From Myxacorys almedinensis A (GTDB taxonomy: Bacteria; Cyanobacteriota; Cyanobacteriia; Leptolyngbyales; Leptolyngbyaceae), in assembly GCF_010091945.1 (NCBI RefSeq), contig NZ_WVIE01000005.1, positions 1-64,000 on the forward strand: DNA of 64,000 bases, written 5' to 3'. Position numbers and translations under genes: made by a program. The notes below the pieces were generated by a model that was given only the letters and a program-made list of their open reading frames with translations, was not told the origin of the DNA and did not search any database. The first letter of the stretch is position 1. Each line of letters opens with the position of its first letter. Of the stretch, positions 32,292-43,123 are shown piece by piece.

Positions 32292-32966
32292 CGAGATAAA
32301 TTTTTACACGTATCTCGGCTCAACGCGTATTTAACGGGTTCGCATTGCCATTTTGAAATCATCTTGCCTGGAAAGGGAGCGGTGAATCTATTGGCATTGT
32401 TGACTATGCGAGGGGATGGGGCGAAGTTGTGATGTGACGTTGAAGAGTACCCTTTAGGGTAATTGTCAAGTCAAAGCATAATAGACATTCTAAAAGAGTA
32501 AGTCAACTCATTACTTCGGGTTGCGTATCCCCAACTTCCCAGGAGGAACCGTTATAAGCTTATCCCTCAGATATTTTGCTAGTAAATTCGCATGAATCGG
32601 TATTTCGGCATCCACCAGATGAAGAAATAACTCGCCAACAGCATCTGTACTTTACCTCAACATTTGTACTTTACCTCAACCCAACCTAAACAGGTTTTAT
32701 ATTTCATTTGTTCCACCTACTTAGCAGTCCTTAGTGATTTATCAGCCTGAAAGGTTCAGCGATCTCAAGATCTCAAACACGCATTCCTTTAAAGAAATCA
32801 ATTTTGCATAAAATTCACTTTTTCTACGTAAGTCATCATTAGCAACCAAGAGAAATAAGTGTTCTTTCTACTTGCAATTGACTTAGCATCATCAATTCAA
32901 CGGTGCAAATTCAACGGTGCAAATTCTGTAGAGACACATCATTCACTCATTCAAAGGAATTTTCCC
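32103..32966. other. 860-bp intergenic region rich in short tandem duplications
   Basis: Apart from the doubtful frame at its left edge I see no gene. It contains three exact two-copy repeats: TGTACTTTACCTCAAC (32646-32661 and 32665-32680), GATCTCAA (32761-32776) and TTCAACGGTGCAAA (32896-32923). The end carries AAAGGA before the ATG at 32967. Confidence 0.5.
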
Positions 32967-34262
32967 ATGAATAACAAAACCCGCAACTACTTCCATTGGT
33001 TAAGACTGCTCACAATCCGCAGGTGCGTCTGGCGTAATGCAACGACAGCGGCTCTGGCAATGGGGGCATTCGCTGTCTTGGCACCATCGGCAGATGCAGC
33101 CATAATCACCATGTACTGGGATGAGGGGCATTTAGATGGCTTTGCACCCACGGCTGGGATGAGGATATCTGGTAATCACTACGGGAATCAAATTGAAATT
33201 CCTGCCCATGCCTGTGGATTTCGGCTGGGAAACCATGATTGGGATGGTGGCTGGCATTTCGCGGAACCCCGGAAGCCGGGATCCTTTGTCAGGTATGCCG
33301 GGCGGACCTATTCATCTGACTCGTTTGGCACGGGTCCCATAGAAGCGATCGGTCCTATTAACAGCGACTGTAGCACCAGTACGGGGCTTTACGAATTTCA
33401 AACGCCTGCATCTAGTAGCATCACCGGTTCCGAAATGCCCCCTGGTGCAGGTTCTTTTGTAGCAGATGTTTACGACGGATCGGACATCGAATGGCTCGAT
33501 TCCAGAGGCAAACCTATCAAGCTTAAAGAAGAAAAACCTGCCAAACCCCCCAAGCTGCCGAAGGAATTCTTTGAAGATTTGAGCAAGCAAGGCTGCATCC
33601 AGGATTTTGAGCAAAAACAACATTGTGAGAAGTCGTCTGCTTTGATGCCTCAACCAGGGGACAAAATTCGCTCAATCAGTCTGGCACCTGCTCCCTCAGG
33701 TCAAACAACGTTAGCCTTGACCGCACCCAACACCGCTTTGAACACCGGCAGCAGCGCTTCCAGACAGAGCAACAAAGTAGAAATTAGCTGTCCTGCTGAA
33801 CTCATCCTCAAGGGCACCATTTCCAAGAGTCATGGGTTCGACCCAGCAACCGTTCAGTATCGCTTTCGCTGGACACACGGACCTATTTCCACCGTCTTCT
33901 CAACCTTTGTTGCAGAAAACACTGCGTCTGTCCTCCACAAGGTTCCCCTACCATTGCCTGCTCCAGTCCAGAGCGGTTCTACTCCAGGGCAAGGAGTTGG
34001 TAATGATCAAACCATTGATCCCGTTTTCCAATCCGATCGCGGCGATGACGGTGGTAACAGTGGTGGTGGACACAGCATTTCACCTCCTGTCTTGACGGAC
34101 AAGCCCCTGCCTAGCAACGAGCATAAGAGTGCTGTGCGATTGGAGATCGTTAACATCGAGAACGGTGATGTGGTGGCATCCAACTGGTGGAACTACCATG
34201 TCTCCTGCAAGCCCAGGGGTAACAACGGAGTCAGCGGACCCCGTGATTTCGAGAACAAATAG
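32967..34262 (+). CDS. Secreted protein of unknown function
   Basis: I choose the ATG at 32967 (AAAGGA 9 nt upstream) over a GTG-like start 108 bp earlier; the protein is then 431 residues. The signal peptide is unusually long, with a basic region (RLLTIRRCVWRNATT) and a hydrophobic core ending LAPSADAA. The mature part has an N-terminal domain rich in Gly/Trp/His (WDEGHLDGFAPTAGMRISGN), a Lys/Pro-rich linker (KLKEEKPAKPPKLPKEF), paired cysteines, and a Gly/Ser/Asp-rich segment before a final beta-like domain. I recognise no domain. It is probably extracellular or periplasmic. Confidence 0.6.
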   Translation: MNNKTRNYFHWLRLLTIRRCVWRNATTAALAMGAFAVLAPSADAAIITMYWDEGHLDGFAPTAGMRISGNHYGNQIEIPAHACGFRLGNHDWDGGWHFAEPRKPGSFVRYAGRTYSSDSFGTGPIEAIGPINSDCSTSTGLYEFQTPASSSITGSEMPPGAGSFVADVYDGSDIEWLDSRGKPIKLKEEKPAKPPKLPKEFFEDLSKQGCIQDFEQKQHCEKSSALMPQPGDKIRSISLAPAPSGQTTLALTAPNTALNTGSSASRQSNKVEISCPAELILKGTISKSHGFDPATVQYRFRWTHGPISTVFSTFVAENTASVLHKVPLPLPAPVQSGSTPGQGVGNDQTIDPVFQSDRGDDGGNSGGGHSISPPVLTDKPLPSNEHKSAVRLEIVNIENGDVVASNWWNYHVSCKPRGNNGVSGPRDFENK

Positions 34263-34512: not shown

Positions 34513-35442
34513 TCATAAAGGCTGTTTACTATGTGTCGATAGAAATGTCGTTAGTTCTTCACGAGTTGGCAAGGATGGTTGCGCCCTGGCTTTCGTGACG
34601 GATAAAGCTGCGATCGCAGACGCTTGTATCATCGCTTGCTGGAGTGATAAACCTGTGGCTAAACCCGCCGCTAAACCTCCATTAAAAGCGTCTCCAGCCG
34701 CGACCGTATCTATTGCTTTCACAGGAAAACTAGGAATCAAAAATGTTTCAGTTTCGGTTAAACAAAATGCACCTAATTTACCAAGTTTTATGATCACCGT
34801 TGCAACACCGCGCTGATGAATTAGCGTTGCGGCTCGCATTGCGCTCTCTTGATCCTCTACCGCAAACCCGGCGAGTTGACTCGCTTCCACTTGGTTTGGA
34901 GTTAGGATATCAACCAACGAATACAGTTCCATTGAAATCGTTTGGGCAGGAGCCGGATCGAGAATCACCGTCACCCCTGCTTGTTTTGCCGCTTGAGCCG
35001 CCGCTACCACCGCTTCTAACGGAATTTCAAGCTGTAAGAGGAGAACCTTTGCATGCGGCAAAACCTGCTGCAATCGCGCCAAGTCAGCCTGCCCGACTCG
35101 CCCATTTGCACTGGGAACGACAATAATGTTGTTTTCGCTGGCATCATCCACCGCGATCGCAGCCACACCCGAATGAATCGACGCATCAGTTAAGACGCGA
35201 TCGCACCCTACCCCATTGGCAATTAATCCCGCCAACAAGTCCTGCCCAAACGGATCGTTTCCCACTCGTCCGACTAACTCGGTTGCCACGCCCAATCGAG
35301 CCACGGCAACGGCTTGATTAGCTCCTTTTCCTCCCGATATCATTTCAAACGAATGTCCAGTCAAGGTTTCGCCCGCAACAGGCAAGCGAGGCGTCCGGGT
35401 CACGAGATCCATGTTGATACTGCCAAATACGATCGCGCTCAT
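34513..35442 (-). CDS. rbsK: Ribokinase (PfkB family)
   Basis: A 309-residue sugar kinase. The N-terminus FGSINMDLVTRTPRLPVAGE and GGKGANQAVAVARLG (substrate-binding motif 1) match ribokinase, and AIDTVAAGDAFNGGLAAGLA (about 241-260) is PfkB signature 2 with the catalytic Asp. No ribose transporter is adjacent, so ribose probably comes from salvage. A tandem GGATTAACG/GGAATTAACG repeat lies immediately before the start. Confidence 0.92.
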   Translation of the reverse strand: MSAIVFGSINMDLVTRTPRLPVAGETLTGHSFEMISGGKGANQAVAVARLGVATELVGRVGNDPFGQDLLAGLIANGVGCDRVLTDASIHSGVAAIAVDDASENNIIVVPSANGRVGQADLARLQQVLPHAKVLLLQLEIPLEAVVAAAQAAKQAGVTVILDPAPAQTISMELYSLVDILTPNQVEASQLAGFAVEDQESAMRAATLIHQRGVATVIIKLGKLGAFCLTETETFLIPSFPVKAIDTVAAGDAFNGGLAAGLATGLSLQQAMIQASAIAALSVTKARAQPSLPTREELTTFLSTHSKQPL

Positions 35443-36079: not shown

Positions 36080-37345
36080 CTACAAATTAGGATTAATGAT
36101 CGATCCCATGAATAGAATCTCACCAGTTTTATTATCTCGAATCGCGCAAAAGAACGGACGATTAACCACCATATCAAACGGAGGTTCCTCTATCTGAACT
36201 GACGTGACTGTAATTCCCACAGATGTCACTGCTGCTGCTTCAGTGCCTTCTTCGTTGACTTCTACAAAAGTCTTATGTTTGACCTGGTTAATATTCGTTT
36301 CTACATCGCTCAAGCGGGAAAAATCTGCTTTTGATTTATCGAAGGCAACCGCCATTCCCAGGGCAGACAAAGCCTCTTTCAATTCAATATCATACGACAA
36401 TTTAAATCGCGGAATTTGAACCGATCCTTGCCGTTGGCTAAACTGCCCCATCCAAGTTTGCCAATTCTCAGAGTTCAGCGTTTTATGAAAATCGGATAGG
36501 CTCGATTTTTGGCTCGGCAAAAACAGATACAGACTCATCTGTTCGTTTCCATAGGGCAAACTTACAGCTTGAAACTGATCGTTTTCGTAGTAACGGTATT
36601 TACCTTTCTGCTGCATCAAAGGATGCTGTTTTTCCTTCCCATTAGCCAAATAAAACGAGCGCGCCTCAGTCTGGTTCTTATCAAATTCGTTTGTCCATTT
36701 GCCATTGAAATAGATGGCATTTATTAAAAACATGACCTGATCAGGTCGAATTTGATCGATAATTTCGCTGATTTTGCCATTAGTCTTTTCGTTGACCCAA
36801 CCGTTGATTTCGCGAGGTGCAGCAGCAGAATTGAAATCTAATGTTTTAATTTCAGCATCATAAAACGTTTGATTACGTTTGATAAACTCAGAATTAAATG
36901 AAACTCCGTTTCGTGCCCACAAAGAATTTGCGATCGCAACGGTGACACTCGGATCACCCTTCTCTAAATTAGTCTTTAAATTTGCATTGGCTTGGTTCAA
37001 TTCACTTAAACTTAACCCTTGCAGTTGCAGTGCGTTTGCCATTGCTTGCTGCGTTTCTCCGCTTGCTCCGTTATAGGTCATCGACAGCGCGATCGCAACA
37101 CTCGACGGAGAAACAAATACATTTTTCTGAGTATCTTTCTTTAAAATTTCCGAGAACAATTTAAAGCCAAACCGTGTATTTGCCGCCACTAGTTTGGGGT
37201 TAACCATCTCTACATTCTCCTGCTTAACGGTTGACTTAGGAGAGGGTGTTGATGTTGCTGCACCCGAACAACCTAAAGCACTCAGCGCCACGATCGCAGC
37301 GATCAAAATAACTCCAACTCTTGAACCCATGCGCGACGTTTTCAT
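36080..37345 (-). CDS. Serpin family lipoprotein (serine protease inhibitor)
   Basis: I choose the ATG giving MKTSRMGSRVG, 45 bp inside the longest frame, so the protein has 421 residues. The N-terminus is a lipoprotein-type signal ending LSALGC (the residue at -3 is Ala, so the lipobox is not ideal). The serpin core is complete: NTRFGFKLFSEILKK, VAIALSMTYNGASGET and LYLFLPSQKSSL. The hinge EVNEEGTEAAAVTSVG has the small residues expected of an inhibitory serpin, and the C-terminus has VNRPFFCAIRDNKTGEILFM. By alignment to alpha-1-antitrypsin the reactive loop is about 5 residues longer, so P1 is uncertain (around TVTSVQ). It follows the subtilase gene, 184 bp downstream on the same strand. 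Confidence 0.93.
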   Translation of the reverse strand: MKTSRMGSRVGVILIAAIVALSALGCSGAATSTPSPKSTVKQENVEMVNPKLVAANTRFGFKLFSEILKKDTQKNVFVSPSSVAIALSMTYNGASGETQQAMANALQLQGLSLSELNQANANLKTNLEKGDPSVTVAIANSLWARNGVSFNSEFIKRNQTFYDAEIKTLDFNSAAAPREINGWVNEKTNGKISEIIDQIRPDQVMFLINAIYFNGKWTNEFDKNQTEARSFYLANGKEKQHPLMQQKGKYRYYENDQFQAVSLPYGNEQMSLYLFLPSQKSSLSDFHKTLNSENWQTWMGQFSQRQGSVQIPRFKLSYDIELKEALSALGMAVAFDKSKADFSRLSDVETNINQVKHKTFVEVNEEGTEAAAVTSVGITVTSVQIEEPPFDMVVNRPFFCAIRDNKTGEILFMGSIINPNL

Positions 37346-37529
37346 AGCTTTATCCAGGCAAATTTTCATGGCATAAATGATTAAATTCAAAAAAAACTCG
37401 TAATCCGCAAATACTCTAATTTTTGCTGCGGAACCTCGTTTGCGGACTACGAATTCGTTTGACCTTTTCGTGTGCGGGCACCCTGTTAGTTCCTACCTTA
37501 ATCTGCTTTTGAGAAGGACAAAGCGTTGG

Positions 37530-39191
37530 TTACAGTTTTCGAGACGCAGGAGCCGTCCACCATGCCAACCCATAATTTTGAGTCGGCTGATTCACCTGTT
37601 CGTGAAACACAACCCGAATTTTATAGCGCCCGGTTTTTGGAACTTGCTGAAAGATATGCTCCACATTATCAATCTTGCTAACAGACGACCAGATACTTTG
37701 TTTCACATCAGTTGCTTCAGCTTTCATTAAATATAAATCGAGATTGTTAAGCCCGCGATCGCTAAAACTTTCCCCCACGTCATACGCACCATTTTTGTTT
37801 TTATCATTGAGTTCAACCAAGCGATCCCACGTCAGCGTTACCGATACATAACTTCCCTGTTGAAGCGGCTGCTCTAGAACATAATCCTGATGGTTTTGGG
37901 GAGACGCAAGACCTGGCAGTGCCTTAAATTTGCTGACTTTGCCATAGTTCCATGCGATCGCAGGCACAGGCTGAGAAGAATTCCATTCTCCTGGGCTAAA
38001 CTGCTGATAGGCACGAAAAGCATTGAGTTGTCCGGCTCCCATCTGAATATTGAGGGGAATCTTAGGATTTTTGAAAGCATCAGATTCAAGCCATGTCCGA
38101 TTGCTTTTCTCGAAAATAGTGCGTGTCATGCCCAGCGCTAGCCCATTGCCGCTATCTTTGATTTTGTCAGCCGAATTAATTAAAACTGCTTTCATCACTT
38201 CATGGCGTCGGGCGTCGGTTGTCCAGGGCAAAGCGCACCCCTCACCCCGTTTGCAGCTTAAACGGAGATTGCGATCGCCAAATTCTTGCAACAGCGCTAC
38301 CGTTCCTGTCACATGAGGAGCCGCAAAGCTTGACCCGATTTGATTTAGCTCGTCTCCCTTTAAACTTGCGACTGCAATTTTAGTTCCAGGAGCAGCAAGC
38401 GAAACTGATCGGCGTCCTCCCAAGCTTGTTTCAACTCCATCATTACGTTTGAAAATGCTAGGAGCAACATCGCCGATATTAGAAAAATCAATTTTTGAAA
38501 ACAGATCATTTACCTGGCGAGTAAACGAAATTGTCATGCCATTGTAGTTATCTGTTGGAATGGGAATACCACCTTTCCCTTGATTACCTGCAATCACATA
38601 AAGTACATCATGAACTCTAGCAGACCAGTCAACGCATTGAGTCAGCAGCGCATTGCCATCTAGCTTGGCATTTGGGCGCGGATCTTGCTGCAACGCCTCT
38701 CCAAAGCTAAAGTTAATTGCTCGTACATCGCCCCCATTTTGCATCGCCACATGCTCGGCAGAGCGGCATTCTTCTGCCTGCCCACCCCGTTGAGGAGTCG
38801 CCGCCGCCGAAGAATAAAGTTTGGCACTCGGAGCCACGCCTCGCACTGCTTTGCTGTCCCCCACCATGACACTTGCCACCTGTGCAGCATGGGTATCTAA
38901 ATTTGTGTTCGTCTTAGCAGGCTGATCTCGGTAGAATGCACGAGCCAACGACACCACCCGATTTCGGCTCGCGGCTTTATCTACGCCAAACTGCCCCGGT
39001 CGCCCAATCTCAACTTGCCCGATCGCAATCTTTCGACCCGTCAATCCGTAAGGTGGATACTGCAACCTCAGCGCATCAATCCCTTTTTGCGCGATCGACG
39101 AGTTTTGCACCAGCACGCCATAGACCGGAACCGCACCCAAAACCGCTCCTCCAATCCCAACTCCAAGCCAAAATCCTCTCACCGTCTTCAT
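37530..39191 (-). CDS. S8 family (subtilisin-like) serine peptidase with Glu at the usual Asp position
   Basis: A 553-residue exported protease; the N-terminus (FWLGVGIGGAVLGAVPVYG) is a signal or anchor. Catalytic His is H101 (LDTHAAQVASVMVG), the oxyanion Asn N203 (VIAGNQGKG) and the nucleophile S288 (GSSFAAPHVTGTVAL). The strand that normally ends in D-(S/T)-G reads KIAIGQVEIGRPG, with E61 at the aspartate position. The C-terminal 180 residues form a beta-rich domain (DYVLEQPLQQGSYVSVTLTW). It is followed by a serpin gene on the same strand. Confidence 0.88.
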   Translation of the reverse strand: MKTVRGFWLGVGIGGAVLGAVPVYGVLVQNSSIAQKGIDALRLQYPPYGLTGRKIAIGQVEIGRPGQFGVDKAASRNRVVSLARAFYRDQPAKTNTNLDTHAAQVASVMVGDSKAVRGVAPSAKLYSSAAATPQRGGQAEECRSAEHVAMQNGGDVRAINFSFGEALQQDPRPNAKLDGNALLTQCVDWSARVHDVLYVIAGNQGKGGIPIPTDNYNGMTISFTRQVNDLFSKIDFSNIGDVAPSIFKRNDGVETSLGGRRSVSLAAPGTKIAVASLKGDELNQIGSSFAAPHVTGTVALLQEFGDRNLRLSCKRGEGCALPWTTDARRHEVMKAVLINSADKIKDSGNGLALGMTRTIFEKSNRTWLESDAFKNPKIPLNIQMGAGQLNAFRAYQQFSPGEWNSSQPVPAIAWNYGKVSKFKALPGLASPQNHQDYVLEQPLQQGSYVSVTLTWDRLVELNDKNKNGAYDVGESFSDRGLNNLDLYLMKAEATDVKQSIWSSVSKIDNVEHIFQQVPKTGRYKIRVVFHEQVNQPTQNYGLAWWTAPASRKL

Positions 39192-39366: not shown

Positions 39367-40074
39367 ATGCCTCAATCGTCGTCCACAAAGCCGATCGTCG
39401 TTGCGCCATCCATTTTGTCTGCCGATTTTAGCCGCTTAGGAGAAGAGATCCGCGCGATTGATGCCGCCGGAGCAGATTGGATTCATGTTGATGTGATGGA
39501 TGGTCGCTTTGTCCCCAATATTACGATTGGACCGTTGATCGTGGAAGCCATTCGCCCTGTCACTCAAAAGCCGCTAGACGTTCACCTGATGATCGTTGAG
39601 CCAGAAAAGTATGTCGCTGATTTTGCGAAAGCAGGCGCAGATCACATCTATGTCCACGCCGAACACAATGCCTCACCCCATCTACACCGCACCCTCGGAC
39701 AAATTAAAGAATGTGGGAAAAAGGCGGGTGTGGTGCTGAATCCGGGTAGTCCCCTAGAACTGATCGACTATGTTCTTGAACTGTGCGATCTCGTGCTGAT
39801 CATGAGCGTCAACCCCGGATTTGGCGGACAGAGCTTTATTCCAGGGGTGCTGCCCAAGATTCGCAAATTGCGTCAGATGTGCGATGAGCGCGGTCTCGAT
39901 CCATGGATTGAGGTTGATGGAGGCTTAAAGGGGAACAACACTTGGCAAGTGATCGAAGCAGGAGCCAATGCGATCGTAGCTGGGTCAGCCGTGTTTAACG
40001 CGCCAGACTATGCCACTGCGATCGAAGGAATTCGCAATAGCAAGCGCCCCACGCAAGAGTTAGCAGCAGTTTAA
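39367..40074 (+). CDS. rpe: Ribulose-phosphate 3-epimerase
   Basis: A 235-residue TIM-barrel enzyme of the Calvin cycle and pentose phosphate pathway. [39 protein letters not shown] and [13 protein letters not shown]-type segments hold the metal-binding and phosphate residues. Length is normal. It is monocistronic with an intrinsic terminator. Confidence 0.97.
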
Positions 40075-41373: not shown

Positions 41374-41832
41374 GTGGACGTTGACGGCAAAGACCTAAAA
41401 GACCTATTCAAATTTGCAGATTATATCGGTAAGAAACGCTATAACAGGCTCACGATCCGCGATTTTGAAGACTACAGAAAATTTGAAGACTGGCGCTATA
41501 TTAACGGCAAGTATGAATGCGGAACAACTCAAGAAAGCAGAGATTGGGTCAGAGATCATTCAGACTCACACTGCCCGATCTGCAACGAATATTACTCTCG
41601 TAGAGATGGAAAGACCGTAGATCACAAACTTCCACGATCGCAGTACCCTTGGCTCTCAATGGAATTTAAAAACCTGTGGGTCATTTGCTCTTGGTGTAAC
41701 AAAGAGAAAGGCGAGATGCACTGGTATGAGTATGAACACTATATGTTTCTGCATCACTCTGATCTCTACCTGACGGTAAAAGCTGCCCGACCGACCGAGT
41801 TACTACGATCGCTACGGCGCAAACTTCCCTAA
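41374..41832 (+). CDS. HNH endonuclease domain protein (HNH cassette, gene 3)
   Basis: A 152-residue protein starting at GTG. It has a zinc-binding HNH core: CPIC (67-70), the catalytic TVDHKLPRSQYPW with D83-H84, LSMEFKNLWVIC with N100, and CSWCNKEKG (105-113). The N-terminal 60 residues (FADYIGKKRYNRLTIRDFED) are helical and may bind DNA or gene 2. It has no intron, intein or phage terminase neighbours, so it is not an obvious homing nuclease or packaging enzyme. Operon position suggests it acts with the two preceding proteins. Confidence 0.87.
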   Translation: MDVDGKDLKDLFKFADYIGKKRYNRLTIRDFEDYRKFEDWRYINGKYECGTTQESRDWVRDHSDSHCPICNEYYSRRDGKTVDHKLPRSQYPWLSMEFKNLWVICSWCNKEKGEMHWYEYEHYMFLHHSDLYLTVKAARPTELLRSLRRKLP

Positions 41833-41869: not shown

Positions 41870-42679
41870 TCAATCCTCTTTAGTATTGGAAAGCATTACA
41901 GGCTTCAACTTTCGAGAGCGAACCCACACTATGCCACCTGTAGTTGCAAGAAACAGTGCCAGAGCTAACGTGCTAGAAGGTTCGGGAACCGCACGACCGC
42001 AGAAATCACCTTGTTTTGGAGCCTGCACACAGGCAACTGTATTCGCGCGTTGCACGATTTTCAGGGTAGTGGGTCGGTAAAATGTGCGGGAATAGCTCCC
42101 TCCAACTTCTGCTACCACCGATTCTTCAAGCCCTCCAATGTTGGTGCGGGTGAGGTTAGGCAATAAGGCAAGATTGGTTCCGCCAGCGTTGATCCGGAGT
42201 CGATCGCCTCCTCCTGGTGTATTCAGCTTGCCGAATAGGTTGATATTGACTGAATCTAAAAGGGTTTCCACTCCATCGGTAAGGTCGTATAGCGCTAGCG
42301 ACAGCGAACCCTTCGCCTTTGCCAGTTCCAATTCTGGATTGTCAATCTCGGTGTCTAACGCCAACAGAGCCGCAAAATCAAAGCTAAAGATCGCAGGCGA
42401 TGATTCATCTGCGGCAAAAAATAGGTCTTCTACTCTAATCGATTGGCGAGCCGAGGCTTGAAAATCTGTCCCATCGCCAAGCACAAGGCTGGTTGCATCA
42501 ATTGTTGTTTTAAAGAACTCGGTTGAAGTTGGAGAAGAAATTTGACCCTCGATCAGAGTCTGCACCCCGGAGAACGCAAGGCTAGCAGCCTTAGCAGGGG
42601 ATGTTGCGATCGCAAAACAAGCCGTGACTGACCCAACTGCCAGCAGCCAAGGCTGACAAATTTTAGAGTTTAATTTCAT
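41870..42679 (-). CDS. PEP-CTERM sorted exported protein
   Basis: The start is the ATG giving MKLNSKICQPW (GGAG about 8 nt upstream), 269 residues. A signal peptide ends around SPAKAA. The C-terminus has the PEP-CTERM sorting signal VPEPSSTLALALFLATTGG followed by a basic tail (RSRKLK), recognised by exosortase. The body is a beta-rich domain of the kind found in cyanobacterial surface/extracellular matrix proteins. No exosortase is in the window. Divergent from the fasciclin gene. Confidence 0.82.
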   Translation of the reverse strand: MKLNSKICQPWLLAVGSVTACFAIATSPAKAASLAFSGVQTLIEGQISSPTSTEFFKTTIDATSLVLGDGTDFQASARQSIRVEDLFFAADESSPAIFSFDFAALLALDTEIDNPELELAKAKGSLSLALYDLTDGVETLLDSVNINLFGKLNTPGGGDRLRINAGGTNLALLPNLTRTNIGGLEESVVAEVGGSYSRTFYRPTTLKIVQRANTVACVQAPKQGDFCGRAVPEPSSTLALALFLATTGGIVWVRSRKLKPVMLSNTKED

Positions 42680-43123
42680 GCAGGCTACTCCCAACCTTCA
42701 TCAAGGTTGTATGGCTGTATTCAATGAATATCAATAGTTTAAAGAGTTTGAAGCTTAATTCTGGCGACTACTCGGTACACCACCCTGAAAAACTGCGGCT
42801 AAGGGGCTTATTGAGTTTGCACTGGAGGTGAACACGCTCTGTCTTAGGCAAGACTGCGCCCGTAGCATGACACAGCAGATAGAATCACAGTTGAGATTTC
42901 TGTATGTAACTGGTAGTGCTACACAGATAATAAACAAACTCTGGGAAAGCTTAAGTAAATAAACTGAGATTTTACAAAAAAAATATATAAATTGAACCAT
43001 TCTTTATCCGTAGAATTTAGGACGGGACAACCACCCTACAGTCCTCCCTTGGCATGATGTAACACCTGTCCTTCAACGCCTATTTCTTAATACAGAACAT
43101 GAGAGGTTTTAGAAAGGTACATC
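42680..43123. other. Intergenic region PEP-CTERM / fasciclin
   Basis: An AT-rich divergent spacer including TTTTACAAAAAAAATATATAAATT near 42968-42992. No gene is supported; a minus-strand frame of 81 codons (43000-42755) has no ribosome-binding site and an unconvincing composition. Confidence 0.4.

Follow-up and report, generated by a model that had tools for sequence, protein, structure and literature searches.

Does a subtilisin-like protease encoded next to a serpin in a cyanobacterium represent an enzyme together with its own suicide inhibitor, or are the two genes neighbours for other reasons? According to the chloropin paper (PMC10090351), what many prokaryotic serpins act on is still elusive. 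The locus described here belongs to a series in which a serpin and a candidate protease are neighbours in members of several cyanobacterial families; the existence of genomes with both genes, one or none makes the target question directly testable.

Organization of the locus

The analysed window is a stretch of 64,000 nucleotides from Myxacorys almedinensis A (contig NZ_WVIE01000005.1, positions 1 to 64,000). A first-pass annotation had placed an S8 protease and a serpin 184 bp apart on the same strand; these coordinates were confirmed, the protease being upstream and the serpin downstream. The features are as follows.

39367..40074, (+): rpe (ribulose-phosphate 3-epimerase), divergent from the protease gene; named by sequence recognition
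37530..39191, (-): protease gene, an ORF of the S8 family, 553 aa, ATG at 39191, end at 37530; apparently exported
39009..39011, (-): Glu61 codon of the protease, in place of the catalytic Asp of subtilases (alignments, hhalign)
38889..38891, (-): His101 codon of the protease (catalytic His), invariant in alignments
38583..38585, (-): Asn203 codon of the protease (oxyanion Asn), invariant in alignments
38328..38330, (-): Ser288 codon of the protease (nucleophile), invariant in alignments
37389..37457, (-): terminator-like hairpin between protease and serpin, stem up to 18 bp, long loop, then eight T (folding)
36080..37345, (-): serpin lipoprotein gene (PF00079), 421 aa from the chosen ATG at 37345, end at 36080
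37268..37270, (-): lipobox-like Cys codon of the serpin (ALSALGC), from the sequence
36200..36253, (-): reactive centre loop of the serpin, P17 to P1' (EEGTEAAAVTSVGITVT followed by S), from sequence and loop comparison; P1 Thr by canonical count

We take the gene names rpe, AI-2E, LCP and uvrB from recognition of the sequences. A genome search of the host (4.96 Mb) found one serpin and four S8 genes including the serpin's neighbour; among the three further S8 genes is one canonical, apparently exported subtilase.

The serpin

The downstream gene encodes a full-length serpin domain (MEROPS I4), as indicated by a match of 401.8 bits to PF00079 over profile positions 2-370 of 370. Among proteins of solved structure, miropin (5ncs, E 4.6e-80) comes closest to it. 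The hinge EEGTEAAAVT, earlier regarded as compatible with inhibition, is indeed present, and the small residues at P15-P9 (EEGTEAAAV) would suit an inhibitory serpin. Comparisons of loops, tree and LCP linkage were made on serpin rows that took adjacent loci first and part of the others; the share of adjacent rows is thus not a frequency, and some named genomes may still coincide with unnamed ones. Among these 148 rows, a much similar hinge was caught by a motif in 117, and the 31 that escaped it included fragments, hinges close to the standard form and a few that depart from it.

The N-terminus is hydrophobic (12-residue Kyte-Doolittle maximum 3.2), a property observed in 126 of the 133 rows examined out of 148; a lipobox-like Cys was recorded in 79 of these 133, the window serpin included. 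The protein would be exported and of inhibitory type, probably anchored in the membrane as a lipoprotein. By a canonical count taken from alpha-1-antitrypsin, its P1 is Thr and its P1' Ser. With hydrophobic P4, P1 Thr and P1' Ser, the loop would offer a cleavage site to subtilisin- or elastase-like proteases and, once cleaved, would insert and trap the acyl-enzyme.

Resemblance to miropin, the serpin of Tannerella forsythia, consists in the serpin sequence and in the hinge EEGTEAAAVT, which appears in the alignment with 5ncs. A review (PMC6718151) describes miropin as an inhibitor of bacterial proteases, subtilisin among them. Its bacterium is human-associated and miropin is discussed there as a virulence factor, whereas here the host is a cyanobacterium, a protease gene lies beside the serpin and inhibition is predicted.

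The protease

The match of the protease to PF00082 (68 bits) covered residues 82-348 only, and a match to PF04151 remained below its cut-off. The retention of H101, N203 and S288, already pointed out by the first-pass annotation, held throughout, these residues showing no variation in the alignments (12, 28 and 72 sequences). That annotation named no catalytic Asp, and a correction is needed here: the Asp is absent and Glu61 occupies its position. Glu61 was invariant in the same three alignments and extended to homologues of about 45% identity. In a scan of 188 protease loci, in which some genomes were counted twice, Glu was found in 186, that is, in 186 of the 186 covering the site; the other two represent one contig that begins past it. 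Around this residue the protease reads KIAIGQVEIG; the corresponding stretch of canonical subtilases, from this genome and from related ones, is VAVIDTG. Profile comparison with 15 canonical cyanobacterial subtilases gave, in default mode, an alignment beginning past Glu61, and three looser hhalign modes placed Glu61 on the Asp of canonical subtilases with low local confidence.

A full-length AlphaFold2 model (28 sequences) was rejected as fold evidence for its mean pLDDT of 39.8. The catalytic domain modelled separately (residues 37-395, 72 sequences) reached a mean pLDDT of 61 and a pTM of 0.72, and displayed a subtilase fold: comparison with KP-43 (1wmd) gave a VIA Z of 23.0 with an rmsd of 3.7 over 272 residues, and subtilisins gave VIA Z values up to 22.9 (Foldseek was also run on the fold). 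The geometry of a triad with Glu61 is not readable from this model because Glu61, its residue 25, falls in a poor region (pLDDT below 50 at model residues 24-46). Like KP-43-type and other S8 subtilases, the protease appears to combine a subtilase fold with a beta-rich C-terminal region after it, suggested by strands in the full-length model that failed elsewhere. It differs from them by the Glu in place of the catalytic Asp and by having no recognised propeptide, and its identity to KP-43 is 22%. The protein therefore has the subtilase fold and likely the subtilase mechanism, yet it is not a Ser-His-Asp subtilase.

No Pfam match to an inhibitory propeptide (I9) was obtained up to E 0.01. Only 36 residues, signal-like stretch included, precede the modelled catalytic domain, and only about 25 separate that stretch from it. 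The N-terminus is hydrophobic (12-residue Kyte-Doolittle maximum 2.2), as in 71 of the 73 homologues examined out of 80 named loci. The closest named relative, from Myxacorys californica, shares 85% identity. Both proteins were earlier placed outside the cytoplasm, and their hydrophobic N-termini agree with apparent export of each. The conserved Glu in a subtilase lacking a recognised propeptide is the least ordinary feature of the locus, and it gives the protease an interest of its own.

The invariance of Glu61 at the Asp position might also be read as the mark of a weakened or regulatory pseudo-enzyme that is no target of the serpin, the latter acting only on other proteases. We consider this quite unlikely: the His, Asn and Ser are invariant too, which suggests that catalysis is kept, and certain other serine hydrolases, e.g. 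acetylcholinesterase, use Glu as their catalytic acid.

Conservation of the adjacency

The first-pass annotation drew the functional pairing from adjacency and proposed co-occurrence in related genomes as a check. Adjacency proved to be conserved: at least 35 of the 123 class genomes with both genes, from eight families (f1, f3, f4, f5, f7, f15, f23 and f52), carry the pair in one order and orientation. Adjacent means here that the serpin is downstream, on the same strand and within 2.5 kb, so that order and strand are fixed by definition; the genomes were picked by eye from match listings, and 35 is a lower bound. The number is beyond chance, for which a rough estimate predicts 0.03 of 123 genomes. 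Additional cases occurred in a phylum sample and in 31 of 80 named loci. Other arrangements were also recorded, with the genes on opposite strands about 7 kb apart (G366) or the serpin beyond rpe on the other strand (L174). In Leptolyngbyaceae CSU_1_3 (L097 and L157, the same contig), the serpin beside the protease is split over two overlapping frames, so that either the gene is broken or the assembly is faulty.

A serpin tree was built from 146 of the 148 rows (two rows under 360 aa were excluded). On it, adjacency changed 15 times versus 45.3 times in shuffles; because changes are so few, adjacency is inherited. It is, moreover, part of a larger block, with rpe divergent upstream of the protease, followed by the serpin, (an AI-2E permease-like gene), a small gene c3 and an LCP gene. 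The last three are found downstream in many lineages. The protease is bound more tightly to rpe, a gene without any obvious connection to it, which adjoins it in 68 of the 72 named loci with enough upstream flank, than to the serpin, which does so in 30 of 73. A shared divergent promoter may be the reason for the rpe linkage. Of 63 named loci, 26 carry the LCP gene downstream of the protease, and in ten of those no serpin intervenes; the LCP gene was also kept beside 13 of 89 non-adjacent serpin rows (matches below 200 bits excluded and four named loci repeating a fetched contig dropped). Adjacency alone was consequently rejected as proof of a functional pair, since rpe and the LCP gene show like linkage. 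We thus see an old arrangement passed on by descent, in which neither gene is tied to the other.

Presence and absence of the two genes

Among 388 class genomes, 123 contained both genes, 21 the serpin only, 117 the protease only and 127 neither, which amounts to 144 genomes with the serpin and 240 with the protease. Nearly all members of the window's own family have both (serpin in 41 of 42 genomes, protease in 38 of 42). Co-presence was favoured over the 388 genomes (odds ratio 6.4, Fisher test, kinship ignored). Either gene is nevertheless often kept without the other, and the two are gained or lost separately. Forty-three genomes, corresponding to 43 of the 49 named loci whose protease has no serpin beside it, were searched for a serpin elsewhere: 11 gave no serpin match and 32 did. 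Conversely, no protease match was found in 21 of the 144 serpin genomes, some of which are incomplete drafts, so that the inhibitor is not always accompanied.

One genome (G031, locus L251) displays rpe followed directly by the serpin, and a genome search did not find the protease; it is a natural serpin-only derivative of the block. Outside the class, a family of small genomes (f31) gave weak serpin matches, most of which fell in the C-terminal portion of the profile, in frames of about 340-380 aa; with E values from 8e-8 to 1e-3 and three over the cut-off, these were excluded from the class counts.

The patchy distribution of the serpin (144/388) would suit an inhibitor aimed only at foreign proteases, those of grazers or competitors, its place in the genome being simply inherited. 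An environmental response is also on record: in Nodularia spumigena UHCC 0039, a serpin gene is reported to show the strongest up-regulation of all genes at 0 g/L NaCl (PMC5853447). The host has S8 proteases of its own, and we regard an exclusively foreign role as somewhat doubtful.

Reactive loops compared

P1 of the reactive loop was Thr in 40 of 49 adjacent serpins, in 46 of 58 located apart and in 7 of 10 whose genomes lack the protease, i.e. not clearly different by adjacency or protease presence. At P3, Val was commonest in serpins adjacent to the protease and Arg in those apart, a difference that kinship or specificity could explain. Tandem serpin copies with differing reactive loops were observed at four loci (L114, L122, L130 and L275) of families f20 and f26.

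Intergenic region and transcription

The gap between the two genes ranged from 60 to 1628 bp among adjacent pairs (median about 300), and an ORF of at least 80 aa was present between them in 11 of 59 adjacent loci; one genome (G008) displayed two such ORFs. In the window, the gap contains the hairpin listed above. The 150-base stretch holding it folds no better overall than shuffles (z -1.09), which warns against over-reading, and a pattern tool restricted to loops of 3-8 did not report this long-loop structure. A dispersed repeat was considered and rejected, a genome search having revealed a single occurrence plus two short partial matches. In Myxacorys californica (L093), a hairpin with a different stem sequence is found between the same two genes.

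More generally, hairpin-plus-T sites of -8 kcal/mol or below were present in 24 of 58 adjacent-pair gaps versus 29 of 290 shuffles (shuffles keeping single-base content only and cut at 400 bases, the serpin start taken as the first Met of the frame). The 34 gaps of 58 without a strong hairpin count against separate transcription. Because of the gap lengths and the terminator-like hairpins, a simple operon is disfavoured, and the protease and serpin genes are probably transcribed apart, as far as can be judged from sequence.

Relation between the protease and the serpin

Bacterial serpins that inhibit subtilisin have been described in a review (PMC6718151), where the serpin of Clostridium thermocellum is reported to do so, with the bacterium's own subtilisin-like protease as suggested target. 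This serpin and Tk-serpin of Thermococcus kodakarensis resemble the present one in being proposed or reported to act against endogenous subtilisin-like proteases (PMC6718151 and PMC8233489). The latter, a phylogenetic study, further suggests a housekeeping role for ancestral-like prokaryotic serpins, directed against proteases that are endogenous or come from the environment. In a literature survey by titles and abstract openings, with subscription journals mostly outside its range, no description of a pair such as the present one or of a Glu-His-Ser subtilase was found.

These precedents lend some weight to the original proposal that the two proteins form a unit, the serpin being the suicide inhibitor of a neighbouring protease that no recognised propeptide restrains. 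Several of its elements stood: order and strand are conserved in eight families, both proteins look exported, the hinge is of the expected type, and no propeptide domain was found in the few residues ahead of the catalytic domain. A functional role of the pair is possible and compatible with the conserved synteny. An exclusive bond between the two is less well supported. The adjacency belongs to a larger block; the protease occurs without any serpin in 117 of its 240 class genomes, the serpin without the protease in 21 of 144, and the latter is missing between rpe and the serpin in G031; P1 is not clearly different by adjacency; a hairpin and a long gap separate the genes; and three further S8 genes exist in the genome. 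Because of the independent presence of the genes, their likely separate transcription and the similarity of the loops, a dedicated pair is disfavoured, and we consider it unlikely.

The reading that we favour, with fair though not strong confidence, is that of a general envelope-guard serpin located beside an independently kept Glu-His-Ser subtilase, the two being neighbours through an old gene neighbourhood. The protease would represent a lineage of exported subtilases whose triad is Glu-His-Ser, retained with or without the serpin, and the genes would lie side by side since both belonged to an old cyanobacterial neighbourhood. The serpin would most likely guard the envelope against subtilisin- or elastase-like proteases generally, own or foreign, with the neighbouring protease as at most one possible target. 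The anatomy of the locus, its conservation and synteny and the separate occurrence of the two genes are observed, while export, transcription apart, trapping and the targets are inferred.

A more speculative scenario, which we hold to be rather improbable, is that an envelope subtilase lineage without propeptide swapped Asp for Glu and was restrained in trans by the ancestral neighbour serpin, lineages that lost the serpin having found another way.

Other features of the window

Four further genes of the window deserve mention. Positions 41374-41832 encode a small protein in which an HNH-endonuclease-like motif (CPIC...DHKLPRS...NLWVICSWCN) was recognized by eye, and positions 41870-42694 a PEP-CTERM protein (TIGR02595, over cut-off). 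A 467-aa protein, perhaps exported, is encoded at 32859-34262 and gave no Pfam or NCBIfam match at E 0.01. Downstream of the serpin, positions 34513-35442 encode a ribokinase (TIGR02152, over cut-off).
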